Source of the DNA: Salinivenus lutea
GTDB taxonomy: Bacteria; Bacteroidota; Rhodothermia; Rhodothermales; Salinibacteraceae
Length of the DNA: 49,613 nt
Direction of reading: 5' to 3'
NCBI GenBank assembly: GCA_002894685.1
Contig: NCRC01000027.1
Span: 1 to 49,613 of the forward strand
Below the pieces are notes generated by a model that was given only the letters and a program-made list of their open reading frames with translations, ran no database searches and was not told where the DNA came from. A program made the translations under genes and the position numbers. This document shows positions 3,883 to 5,606 of this stretch, piece by piece; position 1 is the first letter of the stretch, and each line of letters begins with the position of its first letter.

Positions 3883-4329
3883 TTAGGACCCCGACTCCTC
3901 GGTCGGCCACCGCGTCTCCTCCGGCAAATCGCCGTCGGGCGGCTGCAGCAAAAGCTCTTCGGGCAAATCGTTCACCTGATCGTCCGGGTTCACCACGGCA
4001 ACGATGGGGAGGGCCAGCGCGGTGAAGAACTTCCCCAACGCCGCAATCAAGAACTCCTGCTGGAATTCGACCATGTCCTCCACAAAGCGGCCGTCGTCGT
4101 TCAGGTGCCCCTGGATGTCGAGGTACAACACGCGGGGCCAGTCGGGGAACCGGTCCTGCGCCTCCGTGAGCAGGTCGAACACGTCGTGGGCGGCCGTTTC
4201 AAAGTCGTCGCCCTCGTCCACGATGTGATAGAGAGACACGGTGTTGTCGAAGTTCATGTGGATGCCCGGCGCGTCCGGCTTGTTGTAGTCCGGAATAAAC
4301 TCCGGCGCCTCATCGCTCGACGTGCTCAT
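3883..4329 (-). CDS. Conserved hypothetical acidic cytoplasmic protein
   Basis: A 148-aa soluble acidic protein with no signal peptide or membrane segment. It contains a predicted alternation of helices and strands (for example WPRVLYLDIQGHLNDD and LPIVAVVNPDDQ) and an acidic, proline-rich tail. I do not recognise a family. It lies directly downstream of the chorismate mutase gene on the same strand (82-bp gap), so it may be co-transcribed with it, but nothing in the sequence gives a function. Confidence 0.7.
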   Translation of the reverse strand: MSTSSDEAPEFIPDYNKPDAPGIHMNFDNTVSLYHIVDEGDDFETAAHDVFDLLTEAQDRFPDWPRVLYLDIQGHLNDDGRFVEDMVEFQQEFLIAALGKFFTALALPIVAVVNPDDQVNDLPEELLLQPPDGDLPEETRWPTEESGS

Positions 4330-4411
4330 ACGACTGGTACGAAACGGTGAAAAGAGTGCGGGCGGTTGAATGTCCGCACAGGGCGTGAGATTCCAGTGCC
4401 CGCCCTCCCGC

Positions 4412-4723
4412 CTAAGACGCCTCCGGCACTGCGTGCGCCTCGTCCGTCCGGCGCCGGCGCCGCTGCCGCTCCACCGACTGGGACAGCACCTCCTCGTAGA
4501 TCTGCCGGGCCACCTCCGGGGCCAGGCCGTGCTCTTCGGCGAGGGTCGTCACCCGGTCCAGGAGCTCTTGCTCGCGATCGGGATCGCGCACCGAATCGCC
4601 GTTCTCGGCCTTCGTCTCACAGAGCTCATCGACGAGGGCATAGCGCTCGGCCAGCAGTTCAACGACGCGGCGGTCGATTTCATCGATGGTCTCGCGGGCG
4701 TCGCGGAGGGAAGGAGTCGACAT
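4412..4723 (-). CDS. aroQ: Chorismate mutase, AroQ class (type II)
   Basis: A 103-aa all-helical AroQ-fold chorismate mutase, converting chorismate to prephenate at the entry to phenylalanine and tyrosine synthesis. The N-terminal signature is clear: LRDARETIDEIDRRVVELLAER, then a second segment (residues about 45-75) with DPDREQELLDRV, and the closing helix PEVARQIYEEVLSQSVERQRR. Monofunctional length; a basic tail of consecutive arginines follows. The ATG at 4723 starts right at the first helix; the longer in-frame extension reads through the regulatory leader and is not homologous. Upstream on the same strand lie a short leader peptide rich in Tyr and Leu ending in Phe and an intrinsic terminator, suggesting transcription attenuation by Tyr/Phe-tRNA supply. 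Confidence 0.9.
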   Translation of the reverse strand: MSTPSLRDARETIDEIDRRVVELLAERYALVDELCETKAENGDSVRDPDREQELLDRVTTLAEEHGLAPEVARQIYEEVLSQSVERQRRRRRTDEAHAVPEAS

Positions 4724-4794
4724 GGGTGGAAGCAACGGGTATGAACGAAAGCGGAGGAATGTCCACCGACGTTGGCCTTCGCTCCCACACATAC

Positions 4795-4909
4795 AAAACC
4801 CGCCGGGACCGAAGGCGATCGACCGGCGGGGACAACACAGGAATGCGGGTGCGTGCGTGCTACGAACCGCCGGCTGGGGGAAACAGATACAGATAGAGAT
4901 ACCCCAGCC
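4795..4909 (-). promoter_or_regulatory. Four-segment transcription attenuator of aroQ
   Basis: Read on the minus strand in transcript order. Segment 1 is GGCTGGGG (plus 4902-4909). Then come the Tyr/Phe codons of the leader peptide. Segment 2 is CCCCAGCC (4872-4879), which pairs perfectly with segment 1 and continues as CCGGCGG (4867-4873). Segment 3 is CCCGCCGG (4823-4830) and segment 4 CCGGCGGG (4799-4806), followed by TTTT (4795-4798). 3:4 is a perfect 8-bp intrinsic terminator; 2:3 gives a perfect 7-bp antiterminator; 1:2 and 2:3 are mutually exclusive. A ribosome stalled at the Tyr/Phe codons would cover segment 1 and favour read-through, the classical amino-acid attenuation layout. Confidence 0.7.
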
Positions 4910-4976
4910 CGGCACGACCGAGGGCCCGGCGCGCCGTGAATGCGGAGTCCGTAAGCGTTGGAGCACGCAGATTCAT
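4860..4976 (-). CDS. Leader peptide of the aroQ attenuator
   Basis: A 38-aa reading frame beginning MNLRAPTLTDS and ending GYLYLYLFPPAGGS before a TAG stop. The run Tyr-Leu-Tyr-Leu-Tyr-Leu-Phe is encoded with TAT, TAT, TAT and TTT, although this genome strongly prefers C-ending codons. The run lies exactly in the loop of the 1:2 hairpin described for the attenuator. Stop to terminator stem is 29 nt and the aroQ ATG is 136 nt downstream. No homology is expected for such a peptide; the call rests on position, composition and the RNA structures. The start ATG at 4976 is the nearest upstream; a longer frame to 5048 exists. Confidence 0.6.
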   Translation of the reverse strand: MNLRAPTLTDSAFTARRALGRAGLGYLYLYLFPPAGGS

Positions 4977-5117
4977 GATGATCAAACGGTAGGGACTGCG
5001 GGACGGGATGTCAAGGCCGAGCCCGAAAATCCGTCTTTTTCGAGCCAATGTGCCGTCCGACCGAAATTGTTGAGGCGAGCGACGAGCCGGGCCGTACGAC
5101 CAACGCCCGGCGTGGCC

Positions 5118-5606
5118 CTACCCTTCCGAGCGGTGCGTGTGCGGGCGCGACGCCGCATCCGGACGTCGCTGTTGCACCAGGCCTCCCAAAATGGCGAGGG
5201 CAAAGCCGAGCCCGGCCACCGCAATGGCCACACTGGAGCCTGACAGCGCCCAGCCAACGCCCGCCGCAATCACGACGGTGCCGCCAATGCCCATGAGGCC
5301 GAGCCCGAGGGCCCGCCACACGTCCTGCCCGTCCCCCACCACCGTGCCGCCCGTTCCGGCGGCGTCCGGCGGCAGCATGTCCAGGTCATCGAGCATGTGC
5401 CAGGCGCGGTGCGCCTCCTGCCCCGACACCACCAGCCGCACGCCCTGCGTTCGCTGCATCTGGGGATAGGCGCCCCCGGCATCGTCGGTGGCCAGCACCG
5501 CACGAATGCCCTGGGCATCGAGTCGCCCCTTCGCCATTTCCGCGTCGTAGCGGGCGGTGTACGTGGCAATGACGGTCGGGTCATCGAAAGACAAATGGAC
5601 AGGCAT
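5118..5606 (-). CDS. DUF2007-type protein with two membrane helices
   Basis: A 162-aa protein. Residues about 10-80 resemble the DUF2007 'putative signal transducing protein' fold (YDAEMAKGRLDAQGIRAVLATDDAGG and VRLVVSGQEAHRAWHMLDD), which is PII/ACT-like. Two hydrophobic stretches follow (about residues 95-145, ALGLGLMGIGGTVVIAAGVG and VAIAVAGLGFALAILGGLV), so it is probably anchored in the inner membrane with a short basic tail. Function unknown. It precedes the aroQ leader on the same strand but with a long gap, so it is probably a separate unit. Confidence 0.75.
   Translation of the reverse strand: MPVHLSFDDPTVIATYTARYDAEMAKGRLDAQGIRAVLATDDAGGAYPQMQRTQGVRLVVSGQEAHRAWHMLDDLDMLPPDAAGTGGTVVGDGQDVWRALGLGLMGIGGTVVIAAGVGWALSGSSVAIAVAGLGFALAILGGLVQQRRPDAASRPHTHRSEG

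Follow-up and report, generated by a model that had tools for sequence, protein, structure and literature searches.

Transcription attenuation by a translated leader peptide is a classical mechanism, and the one that we propose here for the chorismate mutase gene aroQ of the salt-loving bacterium Salinivenus lutea would work in the manner of the trp, phe and his attenuators; the points of interest are the lineage of the aroQ switch, its Tyr/Phe content and its probable leaderless start. Structurally, the pheL-pheA system of Escherichia coli has a conventional 5′ UTR that includes a ribosome binding site. Like the locus studied here, pheL-pheA places a leader peptide and competing hairpins before a gene, in that case for a chorismate mutase (CM)-prephenate dehydratase, as outlined in PMC11802643. 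It is Phe-specific, however, whereas our leader carries Tyr and Phe codons, and the whole stretch of DNA analyzed (49,613 nucleotides, contig NCRC01000027.1 of assembly GCA_002894685.1, hereafter the window) gave no Rfam match at gathering score; four matches below threshold within 4720..5030 were far under the gathering score and look like chance. Among the systems described in the portions of the literature cited here, the closest functional parallel is aroR-aroF of Corynebacterium glutamicum, in which a leader with Phe-Tyr-Phe precedes an operon with a DAHP synthase gene, although this organism is an actinobacterium and the target is DAHP synthase instead of chorismate mutase; according to the same account, Phe limitation acts on this leader and Tyr availability does not (PMC11802643, citing Neshat et al. 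2014). The nearest in form are leaders of Streptomyces lividans (trpL1, leuL, ilvL and others), which likewise precede amino acid genes on mRNAs without a 5′ UTR, but which belong to an actinobacterium and include, among the eight tabulated, no Tyr/Phe leader before a chorismate mutase gene (PMC8079986). The initial annotation of the window held that attenuation is little described in the Bacteroidota, and the record is indeed thin, except that clues to leader attenuation upstream of amino acid biosynthesis operons have been reported in an account of Flavobacterium psychrophilum (PMC9723704); short ORFs reminiscent of leader peptides are mentioned for Bacteroides thetaiotaomicron (PMC7366714). 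The main text of a 2010 survey of premature terminators names no Salinibacter, Bacteroidetes, aroQ or chorismate mutase (PMC2965389), and PMC4833913, as excerpted, concerns leader genes near structural genes, which is a separate matter. Open-licence literature contained no report joining Salinibacter with leader-peptide attenuation or Rhodothermus with a leader-peptide attenuator, and none combining ‘tyrosine codons’ with ‘leader peptide’, which is weak evidence of absence. The aroQ leader, as a candidate Tyr-responsive attenuator, would add a deep branch near the Bacteroidota to the lineages in which leader peptides control aromatic amino acids.

All features of the locus lie on the minus strand of the window. 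The aroQ gene (4723..4412, ATG at 4723) encodes a type II chorismate mutase of 103 aa that matches Pfam CM_2 (PF01817) above cut-off with an E-value of 3.6e-24; against NCBIfam, the product is under cut-off for all models matched, the best chorismate mutase model scoring 65.2 bits against a cut-off of 77. As the initial annotation had stated, a leader ORF of 38 codons (4976..4860 including the stop; ATG at 4976, stop codon TAG at 4862..4860) is present upstream. Its 38-aa translation is MNLRAPTLTDSAFTARRALGRAGLGYLYLYLFPPAGGS, the C-terminal part of which reads Gly-Tyr-Leu-Tyr-Leu-Tyr-Leu-Phe-Pro-Pro-Ala-Gly-Gly-Ser and includes the control codons Tyr-Leu-Tyr-Leu-Tyr-Leu-Phe at 4901..4881. Segment 1, the protector (4902..4913), consists of the core GGCUGGGG (4909..4902) extended by GCC; the core lies upstream of the Tyr run and can pair with CCCCAGCC (segment 2a, 4879..4872) downstream of the run. 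Segment 2 as a whole (4867..4879) comprises 2a and 2b, the latter being the antiterminator strand CCGGCGG (4873..4867), which is read inside the Ala-Gly-Gly codons and can pair, as had been proposed, with CCGCCGG in the 5′ arm of the terminator. This arm is segment 3 (CCCGCCGG, 4830..4823), at once antiterminator partner and terminator arm, and its terminator 3′ partner is segment 4 (CCGGCGGG, 4806..4799), directly followed by a TTTT tail (4798..4795). The terminator hairpin (4830..4799, or 4830..4795 with TTTT) stands between the leader and aroQ, in agreement with the annotated 8-bp stem and T tail ahead of the gene. A simple consensus terminator scan over 4400..5300 listed none, because the 8-bp stem encloses 16 nt and the rule allows loops of 3-8. 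The pattern CCCGCCGG-N8..20-CCGGCGGG has a single occurrence in the window, where 0.02 would be expected, and folding of the 201-nt region gave -81.3 kcal/mol (z -2.39), a value equalled by 3 of 200 shuffles. All four of the annotated segments are thus present; their mutual exclusivity needs a qualification, in that segments 2a and 2b overlap by only 2 nt, and therefore the exclusivity of 1:2 and 2:3 comes only through the extended pairing GCCGGGCUGGGG:CCCCAGCCGGC.

From this anatomy we infer that aroQ is under ribosome-mediated transcription attenuation that responds to charged tRNA-Tyr and tRNA-Phe and operates on an mRNA starting about 1-4 nt before the leader AUG, and we hold this reading with high confidence. 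When Tyr/Phe are scarce, the ribosome would stall on the Tyr/Phe run and leave free segment 2, which is placed in the leader frame just after the run; the free segment 2 would pair with segment 3 as it emerges, the terminator would be blocked and aroQ would be transcribed. When Tyr/Phe are plentiful, the ribosome would reach the stop codon and cover segment 2, leaving segments 3 and 4 to form the terminator. If no ribosome is present, segment 1 would, in this genome, capture segment 2, and transcription would again be expected to terminate.

With the aroQ protein as query, 18 loci (our own and 17 others) were obtained from 18 of the 27 genomes of the family, with aroQ relatives in 13/13 genomes of the genus; the nearest named relative is Salinivenus iranica CB7 (98%). 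The results showed that a Tyr/Phe-rich leader of 38-52 residues, an antiterminator strand inside the leader frame, and a terminator stem with a T-rich tail between leader and gene occur in all 18 loci. Stop-to-gene distances, N-terminal halves of the leaders and spacers all vary, and therefore the conservation is not mere recent identity. The initial annotation had made its attenuator before a chorismate mutase gene depend on the conservation of leader frame, stems and Tyr/Phe codons in relatives; leader, antiterminator strand and terminator recur in diverged sequence, and this recurrence together with the pairing supports the attenuator at the level of sequence. In an alignment (A2) of the loci, 96.8% of segment 2:segment 3 cells are in standard pairs, with slid versions reaching at most 54.0%, and 97.2% of segment 3:segment 4 cells are paired, with slid versions at most 63.2%. 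The annotation had also pointed to compensatory base changes, and one such event was found: in L017, a single position is altered in segments 2, 3 and 4 together (CCGAUGG/CCGUCGG/CCGACGG in place of the usual CCGGCGG/CCGCCGG/CCGGCGG), so that both alternative pairings are kept. This amounts to one compensatory change per structure (2:3 and 3:4), equalled in 57 and 30 of 500 shuffles, respectively; the near-invariance of the stems makes the base-change statistics weak. Exceptions to the pairing are one broken 2:3 pair in L011 and loss of the last 2:3 pair in L005, L006 and L007. The mean energy of the 2:3 duplex is -23.1 kcal/mol compared to -15.1 ± 0.67 kcal/mol with segment 2 shuffled, and since the stems are nearly invariant, duplexes formed across loci are almost as stable (-21.9 kcal/mol). 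The 1:2 pairing is better than with shuffled segment 1 (0/200), but own and cross-locus energies hardly differ (-26.7 and -26.0 kcal/mol). The perfect 1:2 hairpin described around the control codons does exist in the window, but that form is not conserved beyond L003, a near twin with 98% aroQ identity whose leader is longer by two in-frame codons, Phe-Leu; judged by sequence, the protector appears strong in these two, its same form is not kept elsewhere, and we claim no conserved protector.

The geometry of the putative switch was followed in a model in which the RNA was folded for each codon in turn, beginning 13 nt beyond the first A-site base and ending just before segment 4. In this folding model, the pairing probability of segments 2 and 3 is 0.0 in all 18 loci with the ribosome at the stop codon, and with the ribosome upstream it reaches a maximum of 0.62-1.0, with a plateau in most loci. 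The point at which the predicted 2:3 pairing has dropped by half is no more than one codon away from the last Tyr/Phe in 16/18 loci and is off by 2 in L003 and by 4 in L019; L003 is uneven, with 2:3 reaching only 0.63 and 0.1 at some positions. The modeled switch point thus coincides with the last aromatic codon, so that the aromatic run ends roughly at the point beyond which a stalled ribosome would no longer leave segment 2 exposed. The distance from the last aromatic codon to the stop is 7-8 codons in 17/18 loci and 11 in L019. When the ribosome is placed on the last Tyr codon and the full-length transcript is taken at equilibrium, the terminator probability (P34) is at least 0.84 in 16/18 loci; equilibrium thus favours the terminator in most loci, and so the choice would have to fall during RNA synthesis. 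For the complete RNA without a ribosome, the terminator fails in L018 (P34 0.00) and is partial in L007 (0.35). When the ribosome is left out, segment 1 of the window is predicted to hold segment 2 with a probability of 0.85 as long as segment 3 has not emerged, and 2:3 stands at 0.01; among the relatives the ribosome-free 2:3 probability spans 0.05 to 1.00, and the effect of segment 1 differs among loci.

The aromatic codons of the leaders differ in composition from those of other genes. Over the 18 leaders, Tyr is encoded by TAT 65 and TAC 19 times, whereas seven ORFs of the window use these codons 7 and 38 times (Fisher p 9e-12); Phe is encoded by TTT 49 and TTC 21 times in the leaders and 17 and 47 times in those ORFs (Fisher p 5e-7). 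The counts for the chorismate mutase genes at these loci are TAT 4/TAC 17 and TTT 3/TTC 13. The annotated excess of T-ending Tyr and Phe codons against host preference therefore extends to all 18 leaders taken together, with host preference represented by those seven ORFs. Such codons are likely to keep the loop free of structure or to slow decoding. Among the 13 leaders of the genus, Tyr codons outnumber Phe codons in 8, equal them in 3 and are fewer in 2, and because Tyr exceeds Phe in just 8/13, a response to both Tyr and Phe would be as likely as a response to Tyr alone. A leader preceding a CM-prephenate dehydratase gene (assigned by Pfam; L018 = L118, genome G022) contains 2 Tyr and 6 Phe codons. 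Differences at the three codon positions among six loci compared numbered 69, 72 and 74, with third-position excess absent; therefore the coding status of the leader rests on its frame and composition.

A feature absent from the initial annotation is the probable leaderless start. A -35 element TTGACA (5009..5014) and a -10 element TACCGT (4986..4991), spaced by 17 nt, precede the leader, and the latter ends 9 nt before the leader ATG. Transcription starts 6-8 nt past a -10 box, and here the start probably falls about 1-4 nt before the leader ATG, making the leader mRNA probably leaderless as judged from the boxes; a 5′ UTR of this length would have no room for a Shine-Dalgarno sequence. A ribosome on a 5′-terminal AUG could translate once the RNA emerges, which would ease the coupling that attenuation needs. 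Genes of Salinibacter ruber, in this branch, are reported to lack the Shine-Dalgarno sequence (PMC3155529). The same attenuator could instead operate from an ordinary 5′ UTR with a start farther upstream and an incidental likeness to TTGACA/TACCGT, which we regard as unlikely. The start site is deduced from the boxes, and the -10 box is poor: TACCGT matches three of six positions of TATAAT where the rule asks four, because of which a simple consensus promoter scan of 4400..5300 listed none. Moreover, no such promoter was scored in L018, and a search of 60 genomes of the class for TTGACA-N17-TANNNT-N8..11-ATGAA gave 12 matches (in 11/60 genomes) against 10 in a reversed control, so that class-wide it means little. 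Against an incidental likeness, box sequence, spacing and distance to the ATG are conserved in 17/18 loci: among the 17 with a scored promoter, the -35 is TTGACA in 16 and TTGATA in 1 (L004), the spacer is 17 nt (18 in L010), and the TANNNT box ends at a distance of 9 or 10 nt from the downstream leader ATG where 5-12 nt were allowed. The looser pattern TTGACA-N16..18-TANNNT-N6..11-ATG occurs just 3 times in the species' own 3.55 Mb genome, and the four of the 60 genomes that belong to the genus contain 5 matches to the stricter pattern against 0 in the control, 4/5 of them being the aroQ leader, one per genome.

Leaders can also act through their peptide, as TnaC and ErmCL do by nascent-peptide arrest, and a leader of this kind would sense a free amino acid or a drug rather than codon starvation. 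The last part of the genus peptides is much alike (F-Y-L-G-Y-x-Y-x-Y-F-Y-L-x-T-A-G-G, with small changes, in L008 and L011-L013), a likeness within the genus that exceeds the needs of a bare Tyr run; yet the Ala-Gly-Gly end of the leader is dictated by segment 2, and outside the genus (L015-L019, other families) aromatic richness and distance to segment 2 are kept with no fixed motif, leaving arrest by the peptide very improbable. Still less credible is that the hairpin is a mere terminator of an upstream transcript and the Tyr-rich frame a chance one, with aroQ served by a promoter of its own downstream. There is a same-strand ORF upstream, at 5606..5118, and at least 4 Tyr/Phe in 12 residues, 4 being the density of the window's own leader, occur in some frame of 26/81 chorismate mutase upstream regions, accepted leaders included, but leader, stop spacing and antiterminator strand recur jointly in 18/18 loci. 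Aromatic density by itself is unremarkable, and the case for ribosome-mediated attenuation is carried, at the sequence level, by recurrence with fixed geometry.

Leaders before other amino acid genes were also sought. A Trp leader with 2-5 Trp codons precedes trpE in 10/10 regions read in the genus (L138-L140 and L142-L148; the count leaves out L141, and L149 also has a Trp leader). The trpE leader of our own genome (L147) is MILKANSTFWTWRWWPLSRVTSPFRVW, and its trpE matches TIGR00564 above cut-off. In the trpE leaders, a TANNNT box lies 8-10 nt before the ATG, followed by a terminator and an antiterminator; a leader stretch, e.g., GGGUC..GAGCC, has its pairing partner (GGCUC..GACCC) inside, or immediately ahead of, the terminator 5′ arm. 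No such leader was found upstream of tyrA in 13 loci or upstream of prephenate dehydratase genes in the 11 usable of 13 loci, and upstream of hisG in 12 loci no leader was convincing. In one of these 12 genomes, a weak frame that is rich in His and starts with TTG precedes the gene (L168).

An order-wide search of 103 genomes with a completeness of 80% or more found 99 matches, spread over 94 of these genomes. Of the matches, 14 were already in the set; of the remaining 85 (our own gene included as L046), 81 were read, and G082, G051, G098 and G027:C37 were left out as contig ends or fragments. Leaders were accepted in at least 10/81 regions: L046 (own), L084, L093, L094, L097, L098, L099, L102, L103 and L105. 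The figure is a lower bound, in that the density scores considered were those of 5 or more and the window's own leader scores below. In L105 the leader is aromatic, but no terminator follows it in the stretch examined. Frames in L025, L028-L030, L033, L035, L040, L051, L055, L056, L066-L068 and L078 had passed the density threshold (4 aromatic residues in 12, or a score of 5 or more) and were rejected by eye, the rest of the anatomy being absent. Before the other chorismate mutase genes read, some of them from genera g5, g8 and g9 within the same family, no leader was accepted.

In other families of the order, a Tyr/Phe leader, a terminator and a copy of segment 2 precede eight long CM frames (L084, L093, L094, L097, L098, L099, L102 and L103), in which fusion is assigned from Pfam in three, these being proteins named in the next sentence, and from frame length only in five. 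In three genomes (L109, L115 and L116), Pfam confirmed single proteins of 673-674 aa that unite CM, prephenate dehydratase and DAHP synthase, with an ACT domain above cut-off in two of the three and Tyr/Phe leaders upstream, and CM-DAHP synthase fusions were assigned by Pfam in L117, L119 and L120. These data lead us to favour, by a slight balance, a leaderless attenuation system across this order of the Rhodothermota, in which the two branch-point enzymes of chorismate, chorismate mutase (Tyr/Phe) and anthranilate synthase (Trp), are governed by leaders at mRNA 5′ ends, with a CM switch that is older than the present gene order and behind which the enzyme has been swapped (CM, CM-DAHP synthase, CM-prephenate dehydratase, CM-prephenate dehydratase-DAHP synthase), and with an origin apart from that in Actinobacteria. 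Related switches before differently fused enzymes would allow codon content to be compared with enzyme content. Of the 13 genomes of the genus, one (G007) yielded a class I DAHP synthase and all 13 yielded class II, a pattern that would fit loss of a DAHP synthase once placed behind the same switch.

Downstream of aroQ in the window, an ORF of 148 aa (3883..4329, minus strand), which gave no hit in the Pfam scan, may be co-transcribed with aroQ on the regulated transcript, and the start of a similar ORF is seen downstream of aroQ in L121. In G007, the class I DAHP synthase is present as two separate pieces (L123 and L124) just downstream of the chorismate mutase gene.
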